In this document: positions 3,979 through 49,539 of the stretch, in pieces
Position numbering within the stretch: position 1 is the first letter of the stretch
Layout of the letters: each line of letters begins with the position of its first letter
Origin: Pycnopodia helianthoides
Taxonomy: Eukaryota; Echinodermata; Asteroidea; Forcipulatida; Asteriidae
DNA length: 64,000 nucleotides
Reading direction: 5' to 3'
Assembly (NCBI GenBank): GCA_032158295.1
Contig: CM063253.1
Span: 20,947,583-21,011,582, forward strand
Position numbers and translations under genes: made by a program
Notes under the pieces: model-generated
Databases searched by the model: none
Seen by the model: only the letters and a program-made list of their open reading frames with translations
Told to the model about the DNA's origin: nothing

Positions 3979-4135
3979 TTTTGGGCACCCCGAACAAAGA
4001 TATTGACAAAACAGGGAGACCGCCAACATAGGGCTAGATAGCTCAGTTGGTAGAGCGCCGGTACGTTAATCCGGAGGTCGTTGGTTCAGATCCCGCTCTA
4101 GTAAATTTTTCTTTGTTCAATCCCAAACCATTATG
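3979..4135 (+). mobile_element. SINE with tRNA-Asn-like head, plus copy
   Basis: The tRNA-like part is 4031-4101, with box A TAGCTCAGTTGGTAGAGC and box B GGTTCAGATCCC. The anticodon position reads GTT (Asn-like), but position 33 is C and stem pairs are broken, so it is not a working tRNA gene. The flanks (an AACAAAGATATTGACAAA stretch before, TTTGTTCAA after) recur with the other two copies, which marks it as a dispersed element. Confidence 0.65.
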
Positions 4136-4389: not shown

Positions 4390-4545
4390 TAGTATGGGGT
4401 TGAACAAAGACAAATTGACTAGAGCAGGATTTGGACCAACGACCTCCGGATTAACGTACCAGTGCTCTACCAACTGAGCTATCTAGCCCTATGTTGACGG
4501 TCTCCCTATTTTGTCAATATCTTTGTTCGGGGGTGCAAGTCAGAA
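4390..4545 (-). mobile_element. SINE with tRNA-Asn-like head, inverted copy
   Basis: Reverse-complement copy of the element at 3979-4135; the tRNA-like part is 4419-4490. The two copies form an inverted repeat with about 255 bp between them. The matching flank GTCAATATCTTTGTTCGGG at 4515-4533 shows that the element extends beyond the tRNA-like head. Confidence 0.65.
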
Positions 4546-4794: not shown

Positions 4795-5445
4795 ACTCGT
4801 ACTCATACTCAGAGGTCCTAGTACTTGGTACCCAGCTGGTACTCATACTCAGAGGTCCTAGTACTTGGTACCCAGCTGGTACTCATACTCAGAGGTTCTA
4901 GAACTTGGTACCCAGCTGGTACTCATACTCAGAGGTCCTAGTACTTGGTACCCAGCTGGTACTCATACTCAGAGGTCCTAGTACTTGGTACCCAGCTGGT
5001 ACTCATACTCAGAGGTCCTAGTACTTGGTACCCAGCTGGTACTCATACTCAGAGGTCCTAGTACTTGGTACCCAGCTGGTACTCATACTCAGAGGTCCTA
5101 GTACTTGGTACCCAGCTGGTACTCATACTCAGAGGTCCTAGTACTTGGTACCCAGCTGGTACTCATACTCAGAGGTCCTAGTACTTAGTACCCAGCTGGT
5201 ACTCATACTCAGAGGTCCTAGTACTTGGTAATACCTCCAGCTGGTACATCATACTCAGAGGTCCTAGTACTTGGTACCCAGCTGGTACTCATACTCAGAG
5301 GTCCTAGTACTTGGTACCCAGCTGGTACTCATACTCAGAGGTCCTAGTACTTGGTACCCAGCTGGTACTCATACTCAGAGGTCCTAGTACTTGGTACCCA
5401 GCTGGTACTCATACTCAGAGGTCCTAGTACTTAGTACCCAGCTGT
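4795..5445. repeat. 40 bp tandem array, about 16 copies
   Basis: A 40 bp unit starting ACTCATACTCAGAGGTCC and ending CCCAGCTGGT repeats from about 4795 to 5445. Copies are nearly identical, with one 8-9 bp insertion/deletion disturbance at 5230-5250 and a few point changes (TTGGTA to TTAGTA). The unit is rich in GTAC/TACT, and degenerate GTACT motifs continue to about 5575. It lies in the WDR36 intron and has no coding meaning that I can see. Confidence 0.95.
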
Positions 5446-7124: not shown

Positions 7125-7500
7125 GGTAAGATACTTCTGGTAATTGTCAAAGACTAGTTTCCTCTTTTGGTGTATCCCAACCTATGAATAAAATAACAAA
7201 CCTGTGAAAAATTTAGTCTCAATTGGTCATCGAAGTTGCAAGAAAATAACGAAAGAAAAAACACCCTTATTGAAAAGAAATGTGTGCTTTCAAATGCCTG
7301 AGAAAGGCTTCATGCCTTGAGCCTTTCTGAGATTCAAATATTTTAGTGAGAAATTACCTCTTTTTCAAAAACTTACTTCAGAGGGATTCGTTTCTCACAA
7401 TGTTTTATCCTATCAGCAGCTCTCAGGTGCTCTTTACCAAGTAAGCTTTTATGGTCATGTATTTTTTGAGTAATTACCAAAAGTATCTACTGCTTTTAAG
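7125..7500. mobile_element. MITE family A, diverged copy
   Basis: Ends read GGTAAGATACTTCTGGTAAT and TAATTACCAAAAGTATCTAC, an imperfect terminal inverted repeat. The interior contains AATTGGTCATCGAAGTTGCA as in the copies at 8760 and 62702. It sits immediately before the last WDR36 exon. Confidence 0.65.
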
Positions 7501-7587
7501 ATGAGAGGAATGGTAAGAAGGTCATCTATCCCCCAAACAGGCTGGATTCCTCACCGATATTTTGTCTCATTTTTTCTTCATTTACAG

Positions 7588-7737
7588 CTCCATGGTGATG
7601 AAATAGCCAAAGAACCCAGCTTAATTGAAGAGGTGAACCACCTGGTTGATATTCAGCAGTCGTCATGGCAACGTATCCAAGCACAACTCAACAAGTGTCT
7701 GTGCCTGATAACATACATGAAAAACCCTGCGGTGTGA
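7588..7737 (+). CDS. WDR36: WDR36 / UTP21 homologue, terminal coding exon
   Basis: Terminal coding exon of WDR36. It begins after acceptor TTTACAG (7581-7587) in phase 0 and stops at TGA 7735-7737. The 49 residues include EEVNHLVDIQQSSWQRIQ and LNKCLCLITYMK, which follow the conserved C-terminal WDR36 pattern (EEI-x-x-L near the start, LFNQSMCILNYLK at the end). Together with exon 997-1184 it finishes the Utp21 domain. The separating intron (1185-7587) is about 6.4 kb and holds a LINE tail, three SINEs and a 40 bp array, yet the exons look intact. Confidence 0.9.
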   Translation, partial: LHGDEIAKEPSLIEEVNHLVDIQQSSWQRIQAQLNKCLCLITYMKNPAV

Positions 7738-14821: not shown

Positions 14822-15155
14822 ATGGATCGCGCTACCCGGAAGAAGCTGCTCGAGTCTAAGAAGGCGCAGCTTGCCGAAGTGATCGATGCAGATGCAATCG
14901 CTAAGGAGTTGGTTTCTAAAGATGTGATAAACGAGGGCATCAGAGACCTGATCTTAAAGCTGAAGACCAACAAGGAGAAGACGTACAAACTGGTGGACGC
15001 GCTCAAGATTTCGAAGGGAAAGAAGTTTGAGCTGTTCTGCAATGTGCTGAGTGAACAGGGCCACGAAAAACTCGCCCAAGAGCTCATGCAGCCAAAAGGC
15101 AAAGAAGCAGATAGTGCCGGGAGACGGAAGAACAGAACTCCATCAGCTGGACGTG
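14822..15155 (+). CDS. Exon 1 of the CARD/UBL gene: CARD1
   Basis: 111 codons plus one base. Six-helix CARD pattern: RKKLLESKKAQLAEVID in helix 1, then DAIAKELVSKDVI, GIRDLILKLK, TYKLVDALKISKGKKFELF and a last helix ending LAQELM. Leu/Ile spacing and the K/E-rich surfaces are typical of CARDs. A short basic Ser/Gly-rich tail (GRRKNRTPSAGR) leads to donor G|GTGAGT at 15156. If the donor were not used, the frame would run 10 more codons to a stop at 15185-15187, giving a 121-residue CARD-only protein. Confidence 0.85.
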
Positions 15156-18100
15156 GTGAGTACACCAAAGATTACATCGTAGTTTAAATGACTACAGGAG
15201 ATTCATCATTGTACCCAAGGGGGTGCCTGGTGGCGCGTGCCCCCACAATCCAGTGCCCCAAAGTGCCCCCCACGAAAAATCCAGACACATGTAGTGCCCT
15301 TAAAAAAACCTTTAAAAAACAAAAACAAAAACACGGCCTTTCCCCCTGGAAAGCAATGCCCACATCATTGAAAATGCCTCTGTGTTTTCCTTGGCCGTTG
15401 GCCCTCCATCTCTTTCTAAGCCCAGCGGCAACCGGTTAAAAAATATCGGCTGAAATGAAATAGTGAGGTCAACGGTCAAGTAAGAGGGTGAAACGCATAC
15501 AAAAAGATTCATGTTTTTATCTCCTGGCATTTTACGGCGAAGGATAGAAACTCGTAGTCGACTTTATTTTTATTTGGTAATTACTCCAAAAATGGATGAC
15601 CATAAAAACTTACCTGGTAAGAAGCACTGCAGCTGTTGATAATGTGTAACATTTGGAGAAACAATTCCCTTTAAGGGAATGTGGTTTTAGAGAGAGGGAT
15701 TCAAAAACATTTCAATCTGAGAAACGTTTCTGCATTAAATGTTTCTGATTGTGTACTTCAATTACTGTTTATTCTTCCTGCGTGGACAAAAACGCTCCAG
15801 ATATTCGGCGCTAACTCAAAAACTCTGCCACCTTTCTAGAGTTTTCACAGGTTAGTTTTGTTGTATATATCTATATTTACTTAGTATTAAAACAATCGAA
15901 CGGTTAAAAAACCCAAAGCTATATTTTGCCTTTAATTGTGTTAAAATGGCCGCACCCAGCATAAACTCTAGCATTTTGGTGTGTAGGCTTACCGCAATAG
16001 TTTTGTGTTAAACACATTAGTGCGTTTACACAAACTTCAAGAAAATTTGCCCTTTTATGTAATGATGATAATTCCATTGGGGAAGAATATGTTACTTCAA
16101 GAGAACGTTTGTCTGTTCTCATTTTTTCAGTAGAAAAAGGCATGTAATAGATTCCTAGTGTCATGGTATTTCGTGTGACGTAAAGTGACGGTCTGAAACA
16201 CACGCCACGCCCAGCTCACTCATACTAATAATCATAAATGTTTAGCTTAACCTAAATAGCTTAACATAAATAGCTTAACATAAATAGCTTAACATGAATG
16301 CATCAAGCCGGTTTTTGCTTTGGGATTCAGTCAATAAACAAGAAGCACTGGATATTTCACTTAGCATTACTCAAGGTAATTATTTTAATTTCTTTTTGTT
16401 TTGATTCCTCGTTTTCACCCGAGAACTTCAGATTAAAAAAACACACCTTGCGATCCAGCTGTAACAATCTTGTCAACGTAGATGCAACCAATACGAAAAC
16501 GGGAAGGGGGGGGGGAGAAGAAGAAGAAAGAAAAAATGGTTAATAGTTTGTCTGAAATTGTTTTGATTGTTTTATTGATTAGTATGTGCTTATCCGGGGC
16601 TCTGGTATCAAGTATATACAAAACTAAGTTTAACGTTACAAAAACCCATTCATTTCCCTTATAGGGCCACTGAAAATAATTTTAATATGATATACTTTAA
16701 ATTATAAATTTATATATAACAAAAATTCATGCGTTTTAAAACACACAAACGTATGCCTGCTAAGGAGTCTGACAATAGCGGGGAGAAGGTAGAACTGTGC
16801 AAGTGCAACCCCACGGAGCTCTGAAAATCATATGATCATCCAACTCGTTTAGAAGACACAAATTAAATTGTTTGTAGTTGCTGTGGAAGTGGGGGGGGGG
16901 GTAAACTCAGCTAATATTTCTTAGTTTTCAATTCACTACTTGCACGGATCTGCCTTGTGTGTTTAGATCCTTGACTTCATGTTTCATATTGATTATGTAT
17001 TGTATTTATGTATCTGTTTGGATGAAAGTGTCATTACATTACCCTGACAATACAGAGTTATATAATGTTTCTATTCACTGCCGTCTCCAACTCGAGGCTC
17101 TACACGCAAATGGCTGACCATGCAAAGGGCGAATAGCACTTCAGCTTGGAAAGTAAGAAATCCCCAGCTACGGATTGGCTTACTCTAAATGAGTTGATAT
17201 TATGAATTATTTCATTAAGCATGAAGACAAATTTACAGGCCTAGTGGATACCAATCTCAGTGTCGAATTGCAATTTAAGGTTAAAGGTCACTTGAAAGAA
17301 GTCATAATGTACGCTTTGGTCATTTAATTTGAATATATACTGCACAATTATGATTGATCAATTCATATTCCTGCCATTGTCTTTTTGATAAACACATGCT
17401 TGTGAAATGAAATACAAAGTTTTCAAAAGTGTACAGCAGATAATGAATAAAAAACATGTTTCGCGTTCTGCCTTTTTGAAAAAAAAGAAGGAGTTTGTGT
17501 TTTCTTTCTAAAATGGCCGCCCAACACATTCAAGACAATCGGCCACCCAACACATTCAAGACAATCGGCCACCCAACACATTCAAGACAATCGGCCACCC
17601 AACACATTCAAGACAATCGGCCACCCAACACATTCAAGACAATCGGCCACCCAACACATTCAAGACAATCGGCCACCCAACACATTCAAGACAATCGGCC
17701 ACCCAACACATTCAAGACAATCGGCCACCCAACACATTCAAGACAATCGGCCACCCAACACATTCAAGACAATCGGCCACCCAACACATTCAAGACAATC
17801 GGCCACCCAACACATTCAAGACAATCGGCCACCCAACACATTCAAGACAATCGGCCACCCAACACATTCAAGACAATCGGCCACCCAACACATTCAAGAC
17901 AATCGGCCACCCAACACATTCAAGACAATCGGCCACCCAACACATTCAAGACAATCGGCCACCCAACACATTCAAGACAATCGGCCACCCAACACATTCA
18001 AGACAATCGGCCACCCAACACATTCAAGACAATCGGCCACCCAACACATTCAAGACAATCGGCCACCCAACACATTCAAGACAATCGGCCACCCAACACA

Positions 18101-21100
18101 TTCAAGACAATCGGCCACCCAACACATTCAAGACAATCGGCCACCCAACACATTCAAGACAATCGGCCACCCAACACATTCAAGACAATCGGCCACCCAA
18201 CACATTCAAGACAATCGGCCACCCAACACATTCAAGACAATCGGCCACCCAACACATTCAAGACAATCGGCCACCCAACACATTCAAGACAATCGGCCAC
18301 CCAACACATTCAAGACAATCGGCCACCCAACACATTCAAGACAATCGGCCACCCAACACATTCAAGACAATCGGCCACCCAACACATTCAAGACAATCGG
18401 CCACCCAACACATTCAAGACAATCGGCCACCCAACACATTCAAGACAATCGGCCACCCAACACATTCAAGACAATCGGCCACCCAACACATTCAAGACAA
18501 TCGGCCACCCAACACATTCAAGACAATCGGCCACCCAACACATTCAAGACAATCGGCCACCCAACACATTCAAGACAATCGGCCGGGCTATTTAACAAGA
18601 TGGTTGCCAGCTTTTTTCGGTATGTTTTTTCGGTGTGCTCAAGTCTAAAAATACGATCTTATTTATTTTAAAATTTATTTTTTTGGCCAGAGATCTTAAA
18701 AAAAAGAATTTCGTGAAGAAAGAAAAGAAAAAAAGGAGGCGGGCGGGGACGCTAAAAGCATGTGTTTTTTTTTTTTTTTTTTGGCCTTAAACAATCTGTG
18801 TAATGGTGTTTTTATTCACGAAATTGTGGATTAGCATGGTGAATGCATCATCAGACTGTCAGGTAATGATGTAGGTTGCCCACTTTGTTTGCACTCCTTG
18901 ATCTATGCCTAAATAATTGAGATTTGTCATTAGAAATCGATAACTGGAACTGAAATTAGCTGTCTCACACACAGCCGTATTTCAGATGAAATTGTCATTT
19001 ATTGTAAAGAACTTCATTAATCATGACTTAATCATGATCAATCACTCATGCATGTCATGACCAAAGCGCAAGGTCAGGACAACATTTCAGATTATTACTT
19101 TTAATAATATTGCAATGACGTGGGCGTAACTACAAAATATTCGTTGGTAGCACTATTGTTTACAGGCAAAGTATACCTTTGGTTTTTGGGACCGTTTGAT
19201 TGTTTGAATCTTATATAAATGTAGATATATACAATAAAACTAACCTGTGAAAATTTCATTGCAAAAGGTGGTCGCGTTTTTGAAATATCGCCAAAATCCC
19301 CAGCGAATAATGTCGACGCATAAAGAATATCCCTAATAGGAATACACGATCTGAGAAACGTTTCTGACAGAAACGTTTCTCATATTAAAATTTTTGTGGA
19401 TAAAAACTGACATATTTGTCAATATCCACAGTATTTTGAATTGAAATACATTATTTCTCAAAATGCTTTATACTATTGAAAGTTGCTGTAATTCTAACCA
19501 TGTCAGTTTTTATTGCCTTCTCCAAGTGCATCATGATAAGTCGCTGTAGTTTGGCGTACAATATGAAAACTTAATGATTATAAAGTTCATACCATCCTCC
19601 AAATAGAAAAAAAACTTTTCTATCTAAAAGCTCACTGATTCCAAAGTTCATACCAGTGCCAATCCTCCAGAGAAATGTTTCTATCTGAAAGCTCACTGAT
19701 TGTAATGTTCATACCAGTACCACTCCTCCAGAGAAATATGGAAGCTCACTGATTCTATAGTTCATTGGTTTTAGAGACAGAGACATTCATATCTCAGCAA
19801 ATTGATCGCTCTCATAATTCAACAATTTATAAAACCTGTCTTATAATGTTTCTCTTTGTTCCTAGCGCCTTGAGTACATTTGGTATATATACGTGCGCTA
19901 TAAGGACTCGTACATCTTCAGTGTTATTGAATTGAGATTTCGTTATTTTGCGAAAATAGGTAAAGAATATTTCTGGATAAAAAACTACTTAAATGTCAAG
20001 ATGCTGCTTCATGCATTCCGTGCTTGAGGTCACTTTAAACCGTGGGGATAATTACCGGCGAGTAACGGGGGGGGGGGGGGGTTCGGGGAGGGGAGGGGGG
20101 TCGGTGTGAGTTGTGAGGGGTTTCGGTCTTTCTCGGAATCAGGCATGATCGGCAGTGATCGAACAAATTAATTGACCAATTTCAAAACAAGTACCAAATA
20201 TTTTTTGTCTAAAATACTACATACCATCGCGAATTCTCTAGGTTTCTTTTCTTCACTCTCGATAAACAAGTAAATGCATACACATACACACTATGGTCAT
20301 TTTTTAAACCATGATTTGGACTTGGGCTTCTGCTTTGGCTTCGTCCACTTGATTGATGCCCCCCGTAAGGAAAGCTCACATTTTCACACATAACTGACAG
20401 AGCCCAAGATCAAGCATTGGTTTCGAAAAGGGTCAACATTTCTCTCGATTTCTTACATTAGTCTGCTGTTCTTTGAAAAATGAGGATTCCAACGTTAATT
20501 TGAACAGTAACACCATAATGGTTTCTCCTTGACGAGTCTTCGATGACGTTAATTAGTGCGAATTAACTATAGCCGTATTGGAATCAACTGCTACGGATTC
20601 AACTGTTGTTAAGGACGTTGCTAAGGACATCCTATACTTTCAACACATGATGACGCAGTGATCAAGCAGTAATAGACCTTTCCATTGATAAACAAACCGC
20701 GCTGGTTGGCATGGATGGCCGAATGTTACCAAAACATTCAATCGTCTTAACAGAATGTTGTGTCCAAATTCAATTTTTTTGCAAACGTTCAATAATAATA
20801 TAAAAAATACATCACATGATTGGTTACTTTGTTTCCAACAAATTTAACACTTTTTGTTAAACATTCTAACAAACTGTGGCTATCTGTTTTTGCTTTGCAC
20901 TGATGGCTTCCCATAGTTTTCCAACTTTGGTTGGCAAAAACTCGGACTGTGACCTTGAAACAGAAAGGTTTATAGACGTAGCCGTAGCCGCTAATTCGGA
21001 CACGGCTTAAGTTTGGGTTATCGAAGCTACCCGGCTTAGGGCCTAACGTCACTGGTACTCTGACAACCATAATCAGAATTGTGCTTTAGTCCCCACAGAT

Positions 21101-24100
21101 CCGTTGGTTGGTTCTATTAAACAAACAGACAATATCAGGTTGTCTCACAGTGGTTTCTTTTCCGCTGCCTTTCAATCTCTGTAGACCCCGGTTCGAATCC
21201 CACCCCATGACCGGAGCCTTGCCTTGCACGTGGATGGGGGGGGGGGGGGGGTCAGTCCCTATAGCTTATTGCGTGTGTTTGCTCAATTGGGGTTTTCCTC
21301 CCACATCTAAAACTGAACATTTTCTTCACCATTTTCTATTCATATTGGCGCTAATTGGAAGTGTATGACAGAAAGAAATTAGCGCAAAGGGCTATTTGCA
21401 TTTGTAAGTCTTCGATAGAACTCCAAGTGTTGTGGGACTGAGCATGGACAAAAAGGATTTAATTTAAAGGTATTATACAGGACTGGTAGAGCTGACAAAA
21501 CAGTCGCAAACAAAGTTCATGTTTTGTGTGATTAACCATATACATGAAATAACAAACCTGTGAAAATTTGAGCTCAATTGGTCATCGAGTTCACGAGAAA
21601 ATAGTGAAAAGAGACCTTATGTGTTTTCTGTTTTTCAAACATCGAGTTTATTATCGCGCGCGATAAAAACTATTGTTTTATTCATTTCTCAGAAACGATA
21701 GCATTTTAGGCAGAACTATTTTAAGGAACCCTTTCTACCATTACTTACTTTAAATCATGTAAGTTATGTGTGAATCTGTGAACATTTGTGTTTTTCGATC
21801 TTACCAATAGTGTACATGGCCTTTAAGACCTCAAAATGCCTGCCTGTGAGTAATTATTACAACATATTAAAATATCTTGAGTTAGATTGATTTATGATAA
21901 CAATTATAATAGCCTAATAGCCTAATATGAATAATAATAATAATACTAATACTAAAGTAAGGCATAAAAAAACTTTTTATTGCCCTTTTGGCTAAAAAAT
22001 CGGGAGGGTCGAGGAGGAAAAAATCACAGTAGATATAAACACAACTTTATGATTTCAACCATTTTAATGTTCTCAAAGTAGTATACATTCATACGGTGAA
22101 TACAAACTTACACAATAAACTTACACAAACTTGGTGTATGAATAAATAAAATAATAATTTATAAAACCCCGCGCTACGTATAGGCCAGTTAATCTAAGCC
22201 AAAAAATGGCTTGACCAAGACAACAATGTAACAGAAATGATTTTGTTTGCAACAGTCTCTCAAAACCCTCCAAAACAACATATCAAAAAAGTAGAAAAAA
22301 GTAAGCAGGGGAAATACGCATAATTTGCATAAATTAAAATTTGCCGTTTTCGCCTCTATTTTCACTTATGTATGTGTGCACACAACCTGATAGTTGTAGA
22401 ATTGATATCAATGTTCTATCAAATTTTCATGCAAATGTCTCTTGAAACCAGGAAACCCTCCCAAACAAAGTATCAACAATATTCAAAGTATCAAAGGTGC
22501 CAATATATATTAATTAAATTTATTTAATTAAAGTTACGTGCGTATTATGCACTAACAAGAAATGCAATATTGACTGCTCCTTTAAACTAAACTGCGCCAA
22601 TAAAGTGTCTAAACACTTACAAATGGTCAGATATATCACAACCTCAAATAGTATGCAGAACATTAATTAATTAATCCGATGCACAGTTATCTTCTGCGCA
22701 TTTTGATACCTCTTTTGTTGCGCTACGATAATGTTTGGCGGATTAATGGGTACTTGAGTGGCTTAAGGTCGAATTTCAAAAGTTGCAAAAGCCCCTATTC
22801 AAGCAAGACGTATCCTTGCCGTTCAGGACAGTGGTGGAGGACACACACAGCAGTTACAGTTTATAAGATAAAAGCAGAGAGTACCTTTAAGCAGTGAAGT
22901 TAGAAGTCGGAGGAGCTACTGCCATAAATTTCATGGTTAAGTAAACAGAACAAATTTGTGTCTTTTGTCTTGATTTTGTCTTTGTGTGATACTTGTGCAA
23001 GTTCCCTTCTGGAATTGGGGTGAATAGGGGCTTTTGCAACTTTTGAAATTCGACCTTAAGCCACTCAAGTGCCCATAAATCCGCCAAACAACATCGCAGC
23101 GCAACAAAAGAGGTGTCAAAATGCGCAGAAGATAACTGTGAATCGAATTATGTAATTATTTTTTTGCATACTATTTGAGGTTCCGATAAATCTGACCATT
23201 TGTAAATGTTTAGATACTTTATTGGCGCAGTTTATGTTTGAAACCTTGGACCAGGCACCCCTGGGTCAGAAGATGTTAGGGAGACTCCAAACTTAACCAA
23301 ATTATTATCTCTAGCCCGGTCATGGGGGTTCCAGTATTTATTTTATTAATTTTATTTAATTAAGACTATGTGGGTATTACAATGCACTATAAATTAATTA
23401 AATATTTGACTGCTCCTTTAAATGATGTTTGACACCTTGGACCAGGCACCACTGGGTCAGAGGATGTTAAGGAGGTTCCAAACTTTACAAATTATTATCT
23501 TCTGACCTAGTGGTGCCCAGTCGATCCAAGGTGTCAAATATAATAAAGGGGCAGTCAAATATTTCATTAATTTATAGTGCATTGTAATACGCTCAAAGTA
23601 ATAATTAAACAAATTTAATTAACATTTTCTGGAACCCCCATAACCAGGCTAGAGATAATAATTTTGTAAATTTTGGAACCTCCTTAACATCTTCTGACCT
23701 AGTGGTGACCGGTCCAAGGCATCAAACATGTTTAAAGGGACAGTAACATATTTCTTTAATTTATATTGCATGTAATTTGCACATAATTCTAATTAAATAA
23801 CTTAATTAGAAAATACTGGAACCCCCATGACCGGGCTAGAGATAATAATTTTGTAAAGTTTGGAACCTCCCTAACATCTTCTGACCCAGTGGTGCCCGGT
23901 CCAAGGCATCAAACATAATTTAAAGGGGAAGTCGTTATTGCATTTCTTGTTAGTGCATAATACGCACGTAACTTTAATTAAACAAATTTAATTAAGATAT
24001 GTTGGCACCTTTGATACTTTGAATATTGTTGATACTTTGTTTGGGAGGGTTTCCTGGTTTCAAGAGACATATGCCTATAAATTTTAGGTGACAATGATAT

Positions 24101-25940
24101 CAATTCTACAACTATCAGGGCGGGTGCACACATACATAAGTGAATTTTTTTTTCATTCTTATGTGCCAATGGAAACAAAATTTCTGTATTTTTATGATGC
24201 GGGCAATAACAATTCTAATTCTAATTCTAATTCTAATTCTAAAAATAGAGGCGAAAACAACATTTTTTAATTTATGCAAATTATGCATATTTCCTGCACT
24301 TCCTTTTTTCTACTTTTTTGATATTTTGTTTTGAAGGGTTTCAAGAGACTTTTGCATGCAAATTTGATGTGAAAATTAGATAAATTCTACTACTATCAAG
24401 GCGTATGCATACAAACATTAGTGAAAATAGAGGCGAAAACGGCAACGGCAATTTTTAATTTATGCAAATTATGCATATTTCCCCTACTTACTTTTTTCTA
24501 CTTTTTTGATATGTTGTTTTGGAGGGTTCGAAAAGACTGTTGCAAGGTCAAACCACTGATTGACTAGACTAGTAGGGGCCTGTTCAGCTGTCAGTCGAGT
24601 GACGTATACTTTGTGCTCGGTAGACGCCGCTTCTACCACATGGGCCACACGTGGGAGGATCTCCACGAGCGTGGTTTGGTCTCCACAAGCGTGGTTTGGT
24701 CTCCACAAGCGTGGTTTGGTCTCCACAAGCGTGGTTTGGTCTCCACAAGCGTGGTTTGGTCTCCACAAGCGTGGTTTGGTCTCCACGAGCGTGGTTTGGT
24801 CTCCACAAGCGTGGTTTGGTCTCCACAAGCGTGGTTTGGTCTCCACGAGCGTGGTTTGGTCTCCACAAGCGTGGTTTGGTCTCCACAAGCGTGGTTTGGT
24901 CTCCACAAGCGTGGTTTGGTCTCCACAAGCGTGGTTTGGTCTGCACAAGCGTGGTTTGGTCTCCACAAGCGTGGTTTGGTCTCCACAAGCGTGGTTTGGT
25001 CTCCACAAGCGTGGTTTGGTCTGCATAAGCGTGGTTTGGTCTGCACAAGCGTGGTTTGGTCTCCACAAGCGTGGTTTGGTCTCCACGAGCGTGGTTTGGT
25101 CTCCACGAGCGTGGTTTGGTCTCCACGAGCGTGGTTTGGTCTCCACAAGCGTGGTTTGGTCTCCACAAGCGTGGTTTGGTCTCCACAAGCGTGGTTTGGT
25201 CTCCACAAGCGTGGTTTGGTCTCCACAAGCGTGGTTTGGTCTCCACAAGCGTGGTTTGGTCTCCACAAGCGTGGTTTGGTCTCCACAAGCGTGGTTTGGT
25301 CTCCACAAGCGTGGTTTGGTCTGCACAAGCGTGGTTTGGTCTGCACAAGCGTGGTTTGGTCTCCACAAGCGTGGTTTGGTCTCCACAAGCGTGGTTTGGT
25401 CTGCACAAGCGTGGTTTGGTCTCCACAAGCGTGGTTTGGTCTCCACAAGCGTGGTTTGGTCTCCACAAGCGTGGTTTGGTCTGCACAAGCGTGGTTTGGT
25501 CTGCACAAGCGTGGTTTGGTCTCCACAAGCGTGGTTTGGTCTCCACAAGCGTGGTTTGGTCTCCACAAGCGTGGTTTGGTCGGGTGGGATCTCGTAGATC
25601 GGGAAGCTGCATTCTCTTCTTCTCTTTAATTTGCCAAATTGCAGGATTTTGACGGCGATAGTGTCCCGACTCGATAACTTTTTGAGACTATACTTTTAAA
25701 TTACATCATAAATATTTAAATTATATTTTAAACAGTTTCTTGATTTTTAATGACGATTTAGGCAACTGAAATTGGATTTGTTTTCTTTTGAATTCGTACA
25801 AGAAACACCCGTGGCTAAGCCCACGGCCACGTGTTTACAATATCAGATACGGCATCGTTCATCGTGATTTCTGACAGTACTCAAAAATAATATTTCAGCT
25901 TCGGATATTCAAAGTAAAAAATACTTCCCAAAAAATCGCC

Positions 25941-25976
<36 letters not shown>

Positions 25977-28900
25977 CGACCGTGGATTTCTGTTTTTTGC
26001 GGGGGTCGGTCGGAAAAGGGCAATAAAAAGTTGTTTTTCTGTATGCCTAATATTCAGTTCTTATGTAGTACTTTTGAATATCACACCAACTGGTGTTGCG
26101 AGGCGCTCATTGTTTTTACAGCAGGTATAGGCTAGGCCTATGTAGAGCTGTTTTTTAAACTGAAATTTCAAGGGGATCCCGTTGTTCTTGAAAATAAAAA
26201 TCACTCGTCGTTTAGATTTTTTTCTTTGGTTAAAATTTGATAGAAGGTAATGTTACAAAACGATTCGGCCTAACATACTTTCACACAAGGCACGAAATAA
26301 CTGTAACGACTGCGAAAATTGTTTGTGCGCGGTTGCTTACAAACTGTTGTCATGTTTTTTATTTGTTCTTGTTTATTTGTTCCTTCAGTGTCTCAAATGA
26401 AAGTATTTTACTTCCATGACTAAAGGAAATAAGCGAGTTAATATATAATCAAATTATTGACCAATAATTTGGTAAAAAAGCACATAAAACAAACATCCTA
26501 ACACCCCAACAAACAAACACCCCAAAACAAACAAACAGCTTAAAATAAAAATGTTTCTTTTGTCTTATGGTTTATGGTTTATTTATTTAAAATGTCATAG
26601 CAGCATACTGCTGAATTGCGACATAATTTACAATCATTAAAAACATTACAATGTATAAAAAGAACAGCTTGTGCACTTAACGTCTGTTTAACTGTTGACT
26701 CTATTTTATCCATGGATTGTTGTGTAATTGTTGCCTTTTATTCTTTCGTTTTTCCCAGACGCAAAATCGAACTCGTCCGTTTCAGGCAGCTACGTAGACG
26801 TCTTCAAGACATGTCGTAACTGTTTCATCAGTGACGTATCGGCAGACCCAGAAAGTTTAGTTCGAAAGCTGGAGGTGGGGAATGGAGTCATCCTGACGAG
26901 CGCCACCAAGCGACAGCTCGAGCTCGAATCTCATGCGGAGGCAAAGGCCGAGATACTGTTCAACGCCATCTTGCCTCAAGTAAATGAGTATGGGCCGTTT
27001 TTTGACCTTGTGCAGCTCTTACGAGATCCGTTCCCGCATCTCTCCAACAGTTTATGGGAACAGCTGAAGAACATTGTAGTACCCCCAAAAAGTAGGTTCA
27101 AATTCATAGTTACCGACCTCGTCCACAGACCCCCTTGCATTGGCCGCCATCTTTGATGTCAAACACGACTCTCAGCCAGTGAGAGCTTTTCATTGACCTC
27201 AGTGAGGGGACTGTTTTGGGCATGTGGCGTCATATGCAAGGAGTCTGTTGGTGATGTCATTGTGTTATAAATGATGATTTGCAATTTAAAGTATTAATAA
27301 TTCTACTACTACAATGTGTTGGAGTTTAATACGACTATACTTCTATATATTGGGTTATTGGAAGCACTGTTGTTTACTTCTTAGAAAATGTGACTAATAA
27401 CCACTTTTTACATGATAAGTGGGAAGAGTTTTATTTATATTTATATTTATGTTATTTTCCAGACAATCGTAAAAAAGTACATGAACAGTCAAAACAGCAA
27501 AAACGTAAAAAGAAAAACTACAAAAACATTGAAAAAGACAGAGGAAGAGGTAAATGAACCAGCTAGATCCCATGGATTGCCCAAAAAGAAAGAAAGTTTC
27601 TTTTTAGAGGCTCTCCTCTCCAGCTGATTAAAAGAAGAAAAATAATAACTGGTTGCTCTGCAAAAAACTAGAGATGAGATGTCTTTTTCGATTGCAAATT
27701 TCTAAAGAGGGTAAAACTTTATGGAAAACCACAGGGTTAAAATGACTCATATCACTCATCTATCTAATGGATATTGTCAGTTGTGTGCACATGTTGACTA
27801 ACTTCCTCATTTGTTGTCGTTTTATTATCTATCTTAGGTGGCACCAACAGCAAGCGCAAGAAACAAAGCGCAGGAAGTTTTCATTCCTCTGTCCCGTCAT
27901 CACCAGGGAGCTTTAGGGGTTCTCCCAGCAACAGCCGCAATGGGGCCTCAAATGACGTCATGAAGTCACTGACAAACCTTCAGTCAGACCTAACGGAGTC
28001 ACAGAGTGACAGTCTGAAGCAATCATTACAACTGGAGAAGTGCATACAGACCACAGCTGAAGCCAATACGGCCATCAAGAAGCTGAAGGAGCAACTAGCA
28101 CTCGCCGAGGAGGAGCGGGATGCGGCCACCTCCCAAGCAGACACGGCGAGGCAGCAGGCCACTGAAGCCCGACAACAGCTCGAAGTTGGTCTCGTTGAGG
28201 CGGAAGGAGATAGGAAGAGGCTGGATGATCAGCATCGCAAGTGGGAGGGCCAGATGAGGAGGCGCATGGCAATGCTGGAGCAGAAAGAGACATACCTTGC
28301 CTCTAAGGAAGTTGAGATAAAGAGGCGGGAGGAGGAGCAGAGGCAACGCAACCAGCTGAACAGACGCCAACAGGACTCCCTTGAAATGAAAGGACGGGAC
28401 ATGGCCTACCGTGGAGATCGTCAGGAACGTCGCAGCGCCGAGCATTACGTCAGAGAAGATAGGATAAAAGAGCGGGAGAGCAATATCGAGAACAAGGAGT
28501 TGCAGCTGGCTGAGAGAGAGGATGAGATCACCAAGAAAGAAAGCGCCCTGAAGAAGAAGGACATCGATCTTCGTCGTAAAGAGATAGAGACGGTACGCCT
28601 CGAAGAGCAGATAAAGACGATGCAGACAGCACAACGAAAGGTGGCAGCTCAACTTAAACAGAGGGAGCAAACTGTGGCCCGGGCAGAAGAAGATGTCAAG
28701 ATCATCGGTGAGAGTCTTGAGCAGCGTGAGAAGAATCTCAAGGAGAAAGATGCGAAACTCAAGAAAAAGGATTTGCAGATAGAAGAGAGATCAGAGGCGT
28801 TGGAAGAACTCCAAAACCAAGTTGATAAGAAGGAAAGAGAAGTCCAAGAGATGGCGCAGGAGCAGCAAGAGTGGGAAAGCGCCTTGGAAACCAAGGCTCA

Positions 28901-31268
28901 GGAGATGGGCGATGCTTCGACAGAATACGAGAAGAGAGAAGAAGAAGTGCGTCAGAAAGAAGATGATCTCATCTTCAAGAAGAAAGAGCTGGACAGCCTG
29001 CAGGATGTCTTGGATTGTCGCTTACAGGCTCAGGAGAGAATGGAGCGTGCCCTGAGGATGATTGAGGTTGAGCAAATACGCCGTGATAAGGAGCTCCTCA
29101 ACCGGGAGGCTGAGCACTTCCAAGTGTGTCTCCCAAACCATGATAAGATCAATGAGATGGAGGATCGCTTGGAGGAGCTAGAAAAGAAAGACGGGGAGTT
29201 ACAGAAACGCGAGGAGCTCCTCAGCTGGATTGAAGTCGAGCAGCAGCGTCGAGAGGTAGAGCTGCAGAAGCAAGAGCTGATGAGGGAGAAGGCCCGACGG
29301 ATGAAAGAAGAACTTGGGGAGCATTCAGATGGGGCTGATTTTGGCATGGATGACGACCAGAGGACCGACATGGAGTCCGTTCCACTCAGCGAAAACCAGG
29401 ATAAAGAACAGGACCCAGAACCACTCGACTTTGAGATCACTCTGAAGGGTGCCCGATATCCTAGACAATCCAGAAAGGATTTCTTTGACATCAAAGCAGC
29501 TGGACTGCAGACTGTCGGGGATTTCAAGAATGTGCTGGAGGTAGAGGAAGGGCTACCGGTCAGTTGGCAAAAGCTGTACATGAATGGTCAGCTCTTGGAA
29601 GACAACATGCCGATACCGAGCGTGGACAATGGAGGTCCTAGACCCAAGTTTGAAATGCGATTGGCAACACCCGCCATGAGTCAACGGATCATTTTCAAGC
29701 TGAAGGTGAGTTTGTACTGATATATTGCTCCCTTATAGTTTTTCATTCATGTTTAATGCAACCCCGTCTTCAAACTCAGGATAAATTTCAACTTGACTCT
29801 TAATTAAACGCATTTTTAAGGACATTACAAAAAAAAAATGAAATGCATTCTTTTTGCAAAGTTTGTTTTTCCGTTATATTCAAAACCCAAACTTGTTTTT
29901 CTTAGCTAGGGGTACAATAAAAGTAAACACCTCAAAAACATAAGTTGCACCGTGTCTTCCTTTGATTTTGATTTTGATTTTTCAGTCATTGCATTGTCAA
30001 ACCACTGTAGGATGAAGGCCTCAGCATGATATCTCCAAATGTCTCTATTTTGTGCTTGTTGAAACAAAGTGACTGTCCCCCAGTATTGTTGAAGCTCGTC
30101 TTTCCATCTTTTTCTCTGGCACTCTCTATTCTGTTTGTTTTCATTATGGCGTCCAGTGATTGATTGCTCAGCTCCAACGGTTACCTGAACTGACTTTAAC
30201 TATTATCATTTAACTCAATTTATACATATTTATTATACCCTTTATGTCTCGACAGGTGAAAAGTTGCCATGGTCCCACCCACACTATTGACTTCTCCTCT
30301 GAAGACACAGTGGCATTGGCCAAGTGCCGAATTTACAAGTATACTGGCATACCTCCTCACCAGCAGCAGCTGTCATACAAAGAAGTACTCCTGGAGAACC
30401 ATGCCTCTTTCCAGCACTACTCGATCAGAAAGAACGCGACCCTTGACCTCAGATTGAGGTTTCCGGTGGTTGCCAAGCTGTCTGATACAGAGGAGCTTGA
30501 AATAACCGCAGATGAAATCAACACCACTGCTAACATCAAAGCCACCATATTCGAGAGGACTAAAATACCACTGGATCACATAAAGGTAAGTGAGCTTTCC
30601 CTCAATGAGGATAAAAAAGCAAAAAAAAAAAAAAAAAAAAAAAAATCTGACAAAAAACAACAACTAAAGTAAAAACGTCAGAAACTGTCCAATTCTAGTT
30701 TTTTTTTTAAAGTTATTGTTGTGGCCAACATACTGCAAGAGTACTAGACCTTACTTTTTAACACGAAGAAACCTACCTTTGCAGCAAAAAAGTAATTCTT
30801 GCTATTTATTTTCTGTTTTTGTTGATTTAGATCTCTTACAAAAACAAACAGCTGGAAGATTACCGCACTTTGTCCCACTACAACATCGACGAGGGTGCGA
30901 TTCTGCAAGTCACGTGCCCCGTGGCGATCCAGCTTGTCACCGGTGGTACGGACATCAAAGTGGACGTGGAACCAGGGATGACCGTGCAACAGCTGAAGCC
31001 GCTCATTGCCCGCAAGAAGAGCCTCCCTATCGACAAGATGTACCTGGTCTGCGGTGACCAGGTTCTCGCAGACGATCAAGATGTGGTTGATCTACTGCGA
31101 GCTGACAAGGAGATATCCATGCACGTGGGTAACGTCCTCGTCATGTCCTCCTCTGGCCAACTCATGCAGGAAACCGGTGAAGATAAACCAGATAATACAC
31201 AACTGGACCAGTCCCTTGATCTCAGTGTGTCCTCACTGAATCTTAAGCAACCTCAGACGAGTCGTTAG
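14822..31268 (+). CDS. CARD-CARD-coiled-coil-(ubiquitin-like)4 protein, complete six-exon gene
   Basis: I assemble six exons: 14822-15155, 26759-27091, 27463-27549, 27838-29705, 30256-30585 and 30831-31268. All have GT-AG borders. Phases match at every junction (1, 1, 1, 0, 0) and the sum is 3,390 nt, exactly 1,130 codons including TAG. Order: CARD1 (about residues 5-90), CARD2 (about 123-212), basic linker (223-290), coiled coil (about 293-752), acidic linker, then four ubiquitin-like folds (about 782-864, 866-945, 946-1015, 1016-1090) and a 40-residue tail without GlyGly. CARDs normally nucleate signalling filaments (inflammasome, BCL10/CARD9-like); the UBLs cannot conjugate and more likely bind partners. 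Expected cytoplasmic: no signal peptide or membrane segment. The ATG has A at -3 and G at +4. The exact combination is unknown to me; the function is inference. Confidence 0.85.
15578..15937. mobile_element. MITE family B copy (CARD/UBL intron 1)
   Basis: Reverse-oriented copy. It runs from GGTAATTACTCC, through GCTGTTGATAATGTG and TCTGAGAAACGTTTCTGC, to CAATCGAACGGTTAAAAAAC and a TTTGCCTTTAA end. It lies inside the first intron. Confidence 0.7.
16940..17150. repeat. Dispersed repeat family E, copy 1
   Basis: Segments TTGCACGGATCTGCC, TTGTATTTATGTATCTG and ACTCGAGGCTCTACACGCAA recur in the same order at about 41,170-41,360 and 60,999-61,210. I see no terminal inverted repeat or coding content. 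Confidence 0.65.
17521..18584. repeat. 26 bp satellite, 40 full copies plus 24 bp, essentially perfect
   Basis: The unit starts CCAACACATTCAAGACAATC and ends GGCCAC. Forty complete units fill 17521-18560 exactly, followed by a 24 bp partial unit, and I see no variant among them. Because 26 is not a multiple of 3 and the unit has no stop in any plus frame, a 366-codon frame runs through it (17495-18595), reading with a 26-residue period. It starts just after AAAATGGCCGCC, but it sits in an intron with no family resemblance, so I treat it as satellite DNA rather than a gene. Confidence 0.97.
19156..19525. mobile_element. MITE family B copy
   Basis: Begins ACAGGCAAAGTATACCTTTG followed by GTTTTTGGGACCG, and has the family's central palindrome GAAACGTTTCTGACAGAAAC at about 19355. 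The right end is decayed. Confidence 0.7.
20069..20102. repeat. G-run cluster
   Basis: A run of about 16 G followed by GGGGAGGGGAGGGGGG on the plus strand, a possible quadruplex-forming tract. Similar long G or C runs occur at about 16,509, 16,890, 21,236, 40,134, 40,536 and 40,590. Confidence 0.7.
21472..21832. mobile_element. MITE related to families A and C
   Basis: Starts TTTAAAGGTATTATACAGG and contains ATAACAAACCTGTGAAAATT and AATTGGTCATCGAG. It ends ATAGTGTACATGGCCTTTAA. The ends carry TTAA/TTTAA. It is a diverged relative sharing interior words with both A and C. Confidence 0.6.
24661..25580. repeat. 20 bp tandem array, 46 copies
   Basis: Unit CTCCACAAGCGTGGTTTGGT repeated 46 times without length change. 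Only a few positions vary: CACAAG/CACGAG at position 7, CTCC/CTGC at position 3 and one CTGCATAAG. Each unit contains CCAC-AAGC-GTGG, a small hairpin. With a 20 bp period and no stops, several frames on both strands stay open for over 300 codons. The same content in every frame shows these are repeat shadows, not proteins. Confidence 0.97.
25945..25975. repeat. Poly(A) tract
   Basis: About 29 A residues near the right end of the foldback element; it may be microsatellite expansion or the tail of a retroposed insert. Confidence 0.8.
26051..26758. other. End of CARD/UBL intron 1
   Basis: AT-rich with TTATGGTTTATGG direct repeats near 26,565-26,582. The last 60 bp before 26758 are pyrimidine-rich and form the acceptor. 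No other feature seen. Confidence 0.4.
26759..27091 (+). CDS. Exon 2 of the CARD/UBL gene: CARD2
   Basis: Acceptor TTTCCCAG (ends 26758); phase 1 joins exon 1 to give a split GAC (Asp). The domain reads DVSADPESLVRKLEVGNGVI, then EAKAEILFNAILPQVNE and FFDLVQLLRDPFPHLSNSLW, the canonical late-helix CARD arrangement (L-x-x-L-x-x-P, F-x-x-F/L-x-x-L-x-x-P-x-x-x-L). Donor AAAAA|GTAGGT at 27092. This second CARD is clearly different in sequence from CARD1, so the pair is not a recent exon duplication. Confidence 0.8.
27463..27549 (+). CDS. Exon 3 of the CARD/UBL gene: basic linker
   Basis: An 87 bp exon between acceptor TTTTCCAG and donor GAG|GTAAAT. In the joined frame it is strikingly basic (NRKKVHEQSKQQKRKKKNYK) and could act as a nuclear localisation signal or acidic-partner/RNA contact. 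The in-phase fit on both sides (1 and 1) supports it despite the low sequence complexity. Confidence 0.7.
27838..29705 (+). CDS. Exon 4 of the CARD/UBL gene: coiled coil and first ubiquitin-like fold
   Basis: Acceptor ATCTTAG (ends 27837). The first ~40 codons are Ser/Gly/Lys-rich (an SSVPSSPGSFRGSP segment, a likely phosphorylation-prone hinge). From 27960 about 460 residues show heptad spacing with Glu, Lys, Arg and Gln dominating and almost no proline, i.e. one long coiled coil (ERREEEVRQKE-type registers). An acidic stretch (DGADFGMDDDQRTDMES) follows. The exon ends with a ubiquitin-like fold starting DFEITLKGAR and containing VSWQKLYMNGQLLEDN, the equivalent of ubiquitin's QRLIFAGKQLEDG. 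Donor AAG|GTGAGT. Confidence 0.85.
30256..30585 (+). CDS. Exon 5 of the CARD/UBL gene: ubiquitin-like folds 2 and 3 (start)
   Basis: Acceptor CGACAG (ends 30255), donor AAG|GTAAGT (30586), both phase 0. UBL2 shows GIPPHQQQLSYKEVLLENHA. UBL3 begins PVVAKLSDTEELEITADE and has the helix INTTANIKATIFERTKIPLD. UBL3 is interrupted by the intron in the strand before its KQLEDY segment, so it is completed by exon 6. Confidence 0.85.
30831..31268 (+). CDS. Exon 6 of the CARD/UBL gene: ubiquitin-like folds 3 (end) and 4, stop
   Basis: Acceptor TTGATTTAG (ends 30830), phase 0. It starts with ISYKNKQLEDYRTLSHYNI, the C-terminal half of UBL3, then UBL4 (VAIQLVTGGTDIKVDVEP, TVQQLKPLIARKKSLPID). The tail is hydrophilic and ends PQTSR-stop (TAG 31266-31268). 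No ubiquitin-type GlyGly is present, so processing and conjugation are not expected. Confidence 0.85.
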   Translation: MSYKNKQLEDYRTLSHYNIDEGAILQVTCPVAIQLVTGGTDIKVDVEPGMTVQQLKPLIARKKSLPIDKMYLVCGDQVLADDQDVVDLLRADKEISMHVGNVLVMSSSGQLMQETGEDKPDNTQLDQSLDLSVSSLNLKQPQTSR

Positions 31269-31567: not shown

Positions 31568-31573
31568 AATAAA
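31568..31573 (+). promoter_or_regulatory. Poly(A) signal, CARD/UBL gene
   Basis: AATAAA 300 bp after the stop codon, the first canonical signal downstream. The surrounding 3' region (about 31,400-31,800) has an inverted relative at 51,110-51,540. Confidence 0.5.
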
Positions 31574-43701: not shown

Positions 43702-43825
43702 GATGAAGTTTACTGATATAGTGCCATTCAGATGCAAATCCTCTGTGAAGACAAACAGCTAAGAAAACCTGCTGGCACAATCTGAATTGGTAACACTGTT
43801 GATCACAGCTACAATACCAAGCAAG

Positions 43826-44446
43826 ATGAGGCAGCAAAGTGAAGACTCCTACCGCCTGGTGGTCTTGGGCTCCACGGGCGTGGGCAAGTCAGCTCTGGTA
43901 TCCATGTTCCTCAACGGTAACATCGACCGGATCTACAAGCCAACGTTGGACGACATACACGTCGGGTACGCGTGGCAAGGACGCAAGAAGTGTAAACTGG
44001 AAATCCTGGACACGTCGGGCAGATATGATTTCCCTGCCATGCGCAGACTGTACATCTCCACTGGTCACATGTTCCTCTTGGTCCATTCCCTCAAAGACCC
44101 CAACTCCTTCGAGGAGGCTCTCGGCATCCTCGAACAGATCAGAGACGAACGCACGGAACACGATGTGCCCATCCTTGTCGTCGGTACCAAGTCGGACCAG
44201 AAACTCCCGGGTTGCGTAAGCAGTGCCGAGGCAGAGCTCAGACTCATAGACTACTTGGACGTCGTTCGGTACGTCGAATGCAACGCCAATAGCCCTGACA
44301 GTGTGAACAGTCTCTTCAAACAGGTTGCCAATATGGCGTTGAACCCACGTGACCAGACGACTTCTTTACCGGACGAAACGGACGCACAGCCCCCGAAGCG
44401 ATCCATGTCATTCTTCAGAAGGTTGAAGAGCATTCGCCGAAACTGA
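43826..44446 (+). CDS. Ras-superfamily small GTPase, RASD/Di-Ras-like, intronless
   Basis: 206 residues from ATG 43826 (the frame is open further upstream, but this is its first ATG). G1 is GSTGVGKS (15-22), G2 Thr40 in YKPTLDD, G3 DTSGRYDFPAMRRL (62-75), G4 GTKSD (120-124) and G5 ECNA (151-154). DTSG-x-x-x-FPAMRRL-x-I-x-TG and SFEE are closest to RASD1/Dexras and Rhes. Unusual points: the catalytic Gln of DTAGQ is Arg66, G4 has Thr in place of Asn of NKxD, and the C-terminus (RRLKSIRRN) is basic with no CAAX box, so no prenylation is expected. This predicts slow GTP hydrolysis and membrane contact by charge, which is inference. A TATA box lies upstream. Confidence 0.88.
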   Translation: MRQQSEDSYRLVVLGSTGVGKSALVSMFLNGNIDRIYKPTLDDIHVGYAWQGRKKCKLEILDTSGRYDFPAMRRLYISTGHMFLLVHSLKDPNSFEEALGILEQIRDERTEHDVPILVVGTKSDQKLPGCVSSAEAELRLIDYLDVVRYVECNANSPDSVNSLFKQVANMALNPRDQTTSLPDETDAQPPKRSMSFFRRLKSIRRN

Positions 44447-48730: not shown

Positions 48731-48838
48731 ATGATGGGAGCAAGGAGTTACAATGAGGTTTTGGTTCACTATAGAGGTTGGCCCAGCAGATACGATGAAT
48801 GGCGGTTGGAGGAAGATATTGTCAACCTGGATAACGTG
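48731..48838 (+). pseudogene. Chromo-barrel / Tudor-knot-like fragment
   Basis: The frame contains EVLVHYRGWPSRYDEWRLEE, the signature of the MRG15/MSL3/ARID4 chromo-barrel (V-H-Y-x-G-W-x-x-R-x-D-E-W). A donor-like AAC|GTGTGT follows at 48,836. No flanking partner exons are convincing and the upstream frame is broken, so I call it a dispersed or decayed fragment. A single exon of a larger gene is the alternative. Confidence 0.45.
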
Positions 48839-49539
48839 TGTACAATATTCTGTTACTGCCAATGGCATGGCGAAGTTACATTGTGGTATAGCTTGACATT
48901 TTTTAGTGAATGTGTCCTTGTATTTCAGAGCAATTATCTTCCTAAGGTTTCTATTTTATTTGTTATTCGTGGATTTTTTTTAAAAAAAATTTGGAGGGGG
49001 GGGGTGTTTTCATTTGAGTGTTAGTTAAAATTTATTATGACTTCTTCGAAACCAAAACAGACGTACTCATGTGATTTTACAGTCACGAGCAGTTTGAGAA
49101 ACGCTGGTTACATATACTCTGAAAAACAGGTAATCGAACGATTGTGACATCGGTGGAACTGGCAAATCGAACCACTGTGACATCGGTGAGGCAACACTAT
49201 ACTGTGCTCATTGGGTATATTATGTCGTACAACTCTGAAGCCATATCTTCATTTCTGCATTGTAAATACATCTTTCTACTCGAGGCATAATCTGTACTGT
49301 ATGGATATTTGTTATCAACTGTCCGGAGCTAAGAAAGGGTCAATTTTAAGACATCAGAGTTCCAGGCATTTTGAAAAAACAACAACTTAGCAGTGTTGGT
49401 GGTCTCGAGGCCGGCCTCGGTCTTGGTCTCCCCCTCGAAGACCCATGACTCGGACTCGGCCGTGGCCTCGAAGGGAAGTGGACTCGACTTTAACACTGCA
49501 AGATAGTTCCGTGACAAGTTGAACTCGTCTCACTGCACT

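Follow-up and report, generated by a model that had tools for sequence, protein, structure and literature searches.

Proteins that combine a CARD with a coiled coil assemble with BCL10 and a paracaspase into signalling complexes (PMC5978004), and the CARDs of several immune receptors are contacted by ubiquitin. Those of NOD1, NOD2, RIG-I and MDA5 bind it, and on its surface the NOD1-CARD site centres on Phe4 (PMC4134136); in the form of Lys63-linked (K63) chains, it stabilises the tetramer formed by the RIG-I CARDs (PMC5760545); and the two ubiquitin-like domains (UBLs) of OASL can replace K63 chains on the RIG-I CARDs (PMC4446440). Here, a 64,000-nucleotide stretch of the sea star Pycnopodia helianthoides (assembly GCA_032158295.1, contig CM063253.1, positions 20,947,583 to 21,011,582 of the forward strand; hereafter the window) was analysed, and a gene was delineated whose product carries two CARD-type domains (CARD1, then CARD2), a coiled coil of ~440 residues and four UBLs without GlyGly, in that order. 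Full-length colinear orthologues were found in Asterias rubens, Acanthaster planci and Patiria miniata (88, 64 and 65% identity over 1,100 residues, respectively). It is a real and conserved protein of sea stars, so far uncharacterised, and its order of domains was not met elsewhere in the searches made here.

Gene structure

On the + strand, five exons with GT/AG borders and matching phases were joined into one frame, in which the sole stop is terminal:

14822–15155, + strand: exon 1, with the ATG, CARD1 and the start of the linker; donor GTGAGT; the start Met is shared by the orthologues
26759–27091, + strand: exon 2, with acceptor TTTTTCCCAG and donor GTAGGT; phase 1 in and out
27463–27549, + strand: proposed exon 3, probably non-coding; 87 nucleotides, 29 codons
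27838–29705, + strand: exon 4, with linker, coiled coil, acidic linker, UBL1 and the first residues of UBL2
30256–30585, + strand: exon 5, with GT/AG borders and the frame rebuilt
30831–31268, + strand: exon 6, holding the stop codon
31155–31265, + strand: C-terminal tail, with LDLSVS conserved in the orthologue alignment
31568–31573, + strand: candidate poly(A) signal AATAAA, 300 bases 3′ of the stop

The initial annotation had proposed six exons totalling 1,130 codons. Both the count and the phases were reproduced (with exon 3 included, the open frame encodes 1,129 amino acids, or 1,130 codons with the stop), and five of the exons stand, yet exon 3 is probably not coding because its 29 residues are missing from all three orthologues, which otherwise align end to end, because its base composition is intron-like and because it can be skipped in frame. 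Its GC content is 0.299, as against a minimum of 0.391 among 960 windows of 87 bases in the other exons, and its GC content at third codon positions is 0.25, as against 0.57–0.64 in the other exons. Moreover, the junction that results from skipping it, PPKSGTNS, resembles those of the orthologues. Exon 3 was therefore rejected as a coding exon, although it might be included in a rare splice form. Without it, as the in-frame skip and the orthologues indicate, five exons separated by four introns probably encode a protein of 1,100 amino acids.

The join of exon 1 to exon 2, singled out beforehand as the step on which the gene model depended, spans an intron of 11,603 bases. The same CARD1–CARD2 join is present in all three orthologues, as represented by database gene models, and the part encoded by exon 2 contains no Met suited as a start. 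Intron 1 also harbours two minisatellites, one at 17515–18584 (41 copies of a 26-base unit, 99% matches; open in three + strand frames) and the other at 24660–25581 (46 copies of a 20-base unit, 97% matches).

A CARD and a dissimilar CARD-like domain

The domains of the protein were located as follows:

14831–15088, + strand: CARD1, residues 4–89, assigned by Pfam PF00619
26791–27075, + strand: CARD2, residues 123–217, a divergent CARD-like domain missed by Pfam and assigned by predicted fold
27960–29270, + strand: coiled coil, residues about 264–700, assigned by the helices of the Asterias model, the period and the self-offsets
29427–29684, + strand: UBL1, residues about 753–838; PF00240, 30.9 bits; 15/76 identical to ubiquitin
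29694–30459, + strand: UBL2, residues about 842–913, split by the intron at 29706–30255; PF00240, 51.5 bits; 26/72 identical to ubiquitin
30460–30917, + strand: UBL3, residues about 914–984, split by the intron at 30586–30830; PF00240, 50.3 bits; 22/70 identical to ubiquitin
30918–31154, + strand: UBL4, residues about 985–1063, running into VLVMSSSGQ; PF00240, 29.3 bits; 19/76 identical to ubiquitin

That both N-terminal domains would prove to be CARDs by profile as well as by structure was borne out in full for CARD1 and in part for CARD2. CARD1 passes PF00619 (35.7 bits with the whole protein, cut-off 23.9; E value 7.3e-10 from exon 1 alone), as do its counterparts in the three orthologues (33.6, 26.2 and 33.2 bits); its fold supports the same assignment and lies nearer Apaf-1/CED-3 than CARD9/CARMA1 by fold score. 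For CARD2, Pfam gave no CARD match either in exon 2 or in the CARD2 stretch of the four species, a phmmer search of PDB gave 10 weak rows, none of which is a CARD, and a profile search of PDB gave no row. Its AlphaFold model, however, is a seven-helix, CARD-like bundle (predicted local distance difference test score, pLDDT, 83.4), and among the best 50 of its 112 Foldseek matches 47 are chains of CARD proteins, with two designed and one unnamed. The best of these matches is the Apaf-1 CARD, and the scores are modest (TM-score 0.64/0.73 to 1cy5; best E value only 0.048). CARDs of RIG-I and MDA5 occur among the fold matches of both domains. The model thus points to a helical bundle of the death-fold superfamily, whereas its placement as a CARD rather than another death-fold subclass is less sure.

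The two domains had been described as unlike in sequence, and this holds: no similarity between them was detectable by profile comparison (probability 0.1%), which gives no sign that one CARD was recently duplicated. In all four species their net charges are opposite, from +2 to +4 for CARD1 and from −2 to −5 for CARD2, which is compatible with mutual contacts, although as a weak hint. Between them lies a poorly conserved spacer of ~33 residues, for which the Asterias model has a pLDDT of 26–31 at residues 91–120.

Coiled coil

A long coiled coil of about 460 residues had been claimed, and a region of ~440 residues with heptad-spaced self-similarity was recovered. The model of the Asterias orthologue contains three successive helices (residues 273–405, 416–647 and 651–709; ~437 residues, mostly of moderate confidence). 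Over the whole region, hydrophobic residues recur most strongly at a period of 3.5 (ten periods tried, three species). Taken in windows of 84 residues, this period is clear only in the central part (residues about 428–595) and weak elsewhere. Furthermore, when the six best self-offsets were listed for each of four species, all 24 were multiples of 7. The motif IEVEQ occurs at residues 631 and 687, in invariant blocks of the coiled coil that are 56 residues (eight heptads) apart, or 55 in Asterias. An internal repeat of 56 residues is not claimed, as just 12–13 of 40 positions are identical.

Four UBLs without GlyGly

When the UBLs were searched one by one against PF00240 (cut-off 25.4 bits), each of the four exceeded the cut-off alone, and four PF00240-matching stretches were likewise found in each of the three orthologues. 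This part of the protein also matches Rad60-SLD, Ubiquitin_2 and, weakly, OTU1_UBXL in Pfam. A C-terminal GlyGly is found in none of the 16 UBLs of the four species, and thus the array would not be a processed modifier. The tandem of four GlyGly-free UBLs given in the initial annotation is therefore upheld.

As a set, the Leu8-Ile44-Val70 patch of ubiquitin is kept in none of the 16 UBLs. Ubiquitin position 44 is occupied by Tyr, Ser, Ser and Val in UBL1 to UBL4 of the window protein, respectively, with Ala in UBL2 of Acanthaster, and no UBL of the four species has Leu8, Phe4 or Val70; UBL4 retains Val at position 44 and His68 throughout. UBL1 and UBL4 align only weakly with ubiquitin, which makes their individual positions uncertain. 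In a Foldseek search with the full-length Asterias model, linear tetra-ubiquitin came first, and ISG15 was also among the matches listed, with root-mean-square deviations (rmsd) of 13–29. Because the UBL part of that model is of low confidence and superposes poorly, the sequence result carries the UBL assignment.

Conservation and distribution

The orthologues, first recovered by a protein search with the UBL part (residues 782–1129), span two sea-star orders: Asterias in Forcipulatida, and Acanthaster and Patiria in Valvatida. The 88% identity alone would make a relative of Asterias the most likely source of the window. Their labels are uncharacterized LOC117297546 in Asterias rubens, ‘trichohyalin-like' in Acanthaster planci and ‘putative leucine-rich repeat-containing protein' in Patiria miniata, names that give no functional insight.

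Comparing the window protein with Acanthaster and Patiria, respectively, identity is highest at the start (93 and 93%) and the end (82 and 82%) of the coiled coil, in UBL2 (82 and 82%) and in CARD2 (77 and 77%). It is intermediate in coiled-coil residues 301–480 (71 and 74%), UBL3 (68 and 66%), UBL4 (62 and 54%) and CARD1 (54 and 63%), and lower in coiled-coil residues 481–600 (52 and 55%) and UBL1 (50 and 47%), whereas the linker between the CARDs (residues 92–122) is the least conserved at 19 and 23%. High identity in the modules against low identity in the linker is what a chain of interaction modules with flexible joints would be expected to show. By these identities, greater constraint than in the coiled-coil rod does not extend to all domains. 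The longest run invariant in the four sea stars, of 26 residues, is at the start of the coiled coil (residues 264–289).

The domain-order comparison beyond P. helianthoides, proposed in the initial annotation, found the same architecture in three other sea stars. Outside sea stars, no homologue of the architecture was found in three comparisons with about 5.8 billion proteins, two at an E value of ≤0.001 and one at ≤1; one of the former and the latter scored just the 7,992 and 7,989 candidates, respectively, that share most short exact words. With about 8,000 candidates scored in these two and a method dependent on short exact words, more distant echinoderm relatives may exist; judged by these searches, the order CARD–CARD–coiled coil–four UBLs is found solely in sea stars. 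One further match, a long protein made up of many UBLs whose listed domains include no CARD, was set aside.

Among the literature matches listed, nothing on this protein or architecture was found by title or start of abstract, with subscription journals mostly outside the scope, and LOC117297546 is not mentioned. The available part of the review PMC6723221 likewise contains nothing on this protein. Amphioxus and sea urchin combine death-fold and immune domains in other unusual ways, as described in the accessible part of PMC2575513, so that novelty of combination is in itself no surprise; within that part of the same paper, which treats amphioxus domain combinations, the word ‘ubiquitin' does not occur.

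Proposed role and alternatives

The reading that we favour, and to which we give an even chance, is that of a conserved intracellular scaffold of sea stars that is oligomeric, nucleates through its CARDs and bears a C-terminal UBL docking array. The long coiled coil would make the protein oligomeric and gather the two different CARDs at one end. So concentrated, the CARDs could seed assembly with a partner CARD protein, such as a CARD caspase, an Apaf-1-like protein or another adaptor. At the far end, the four UBLs would serve as non-processable docking modules for partners of the UBL or ubiquitin system; alternatively, they may fold back on the CARDs and control them. Gene structure, domain order, conservation, the CARD1 and UBL families (from sequence), the CARD2 fold (from its model) and the lack of GlyGly are shown here, whereas oligomerisation, nucleation by the CARDs, the nature of the partners and any role in immunity or cell death are inferred. 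The uneven heptad signal and the less certain subclass of CARD2 weigh against the scaffold reading, and the singly confirmed UBLs pull in the opposite direction. The initial annotation had combined a CARD scaffold with a built-in poly-ubiquitin mimic. Its scaffold half is reasonable, whereas literal mimicry is weakened, as no UBL keeps the Ile44-type patch as a set.

An adaptor for apoptosis, in which CARD1 of the Apaf-1/CED-3 group recruits an initiator caspase and the coiled coil provides induced proximity, seems somewhat unlikely. The proximity of CARD1 to that group is the fold result given above, but a fold match names no partner, and the Apaf-1 CARD tops the matches of CARD2 as well.

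Shuttle proteins typically have UBLs without GlyGly. The GlyGly-free array, together with its matches to Rad60-SLD, Ubiquitin_2 and, weakly, OTU1_UBXL, would accordingly suit an adaptor for autophagy or the proteasome, whose CARDs bind a CARD assembly and whose UBLs pass that assembly to the proteasome or a segregase, ending signalling. However, neither the window protein nor any of its three orthologues has a UBA, UIM or other domain that binds ubiquitin in the Pfam listings, and we consider such an adaptor unlikely.

Instead of docking partners, the UBL array might bind the CARDs of its own chain, stabilise their assembly and signal without ubiquitin. Since CARDs are known to be controlled by ubiquitin or UBLs, such action in cis is plausible: NOD1, NOD2, RIG-I and MDA5 all have CARDs to which ubiquitin binds (PMC4134136), the OASL UBLs can substitute for K63 chains on those of RIG-I (PMC4446440), and here CARDs and four UBLs share one polypeptide. 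Yet the Ile44 patch is lost as a set, with Leu8, Phe4 and Val70 replaced and Val44 and His68 kept by UBL4; Phe4, the centre of the NOD1-CARD site, is replaced in every UBL; and ~33 poorly conserved residues separate the CARDs, whereas in RIG-I the two almost adjoin (chain ranges 1–92 and 98–190). Mimicry of ubiquitin in cis is therefore quite doubtful. A self-contained sea-star switch, in which the array would control the CARDs in cis through a surface other than that of Ile44 and free CARD signalling from ubiquitin chains made by other enzymes, is improbable.

Finally, it is very improbable that the gene is an artefact in which a CARD gene and a neighbouring coiled-coil/UBL gene were wrongly joined over the 11.6 kb intron, since, for all the length of that intron and its two large minisatellites, the exon phases are compatible, the three orthologue models carry the identical join and the exon 2 part has no Met usable as a start.

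Other features of the window

Upstream of the gene, frames at 945–1226 and 7474–7737 (+ strand) match consecutive portions of the Utp21 C-terminal domain; the former exceeds the Pfam cut-off of 30.8 bits, and the latter falls just short of it at 29.0 bits. They are probably exons of an upstream WDR36/UTP21 gene. Rfam places tRNA matches on opposite strands at 4032–4104 (+) and 4416–4488 (−), and a further minisatellite lies at 4799–5444 (16 copies of a 40-base unit, 96% matches). Downstream, a single, apparently intronless frame of 227 residues at 43763–44446 (+) matches the Ras family (E value 4.8e-29), and a weak chromodomain-like match, under the Pfam cut-off, is present at 48731–49024 (+). 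Altogether, seven other frames of the window were compared with Pfam (E value ≤0.01): four matched (two Utp21, one Ras and the weak chromodomain), none of them CARD or ubiquitin, and three had no match.

Comparison with known systems

For several immune receptors, the CARDs are under regulation in trans by ubiquitin or UBL proteins, whereas here both kinds of domain reside in one chain, and do so in two sea-star orders. The protein therefore offers a natural test of UBL control over CARDs in cis. It would also add a candidate adaptor to sea-star pathways of cell death or immunity, and its CARD2 appears to be a divergent CARD-like domain overlooked by current family profiles.

Four known systems are comparable in part. 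With the CARD-coiled-coil family (CARD9, CARD10, CARD11 and CARD14), the protein shares a scaffold-like layout in which the N-terminal CARD region leads into a long coiled coil; however, two unlike CARDs (the second CARD-like) precede the coiled coil rather than a single one, CARD1 is nearer Apaf-1/CED-3 than CARD9/CARMA1 by fold score, and the C terminus consists of four UBLs rather than a regulatory tail or MAGUK part. Like RIG-I and MDA5, whose CARDs were matched in fold by both of its own, it has two CARDs in a row, but Pfam lists no helicase here, and a poorly conserved spacer of ~33 residues replaces their near-direct tandem. With polyubiquitin and ISG15 it shares head-to-tail ubiquitin folds, although the structural matches superpose poorly (rmsd 13–29) and its UBLs are 20–36% identical to ubiquitin and free of GlyGly. 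OASL has tandem C-terminal UBLs that are functionally tied to CARDs (PMC4446440); in the sea-star protein, an OAS-like domain is absent from the Pfam matches at E values up to 10, the UBLs number four rather than two, and the CARDs are in the same chain.

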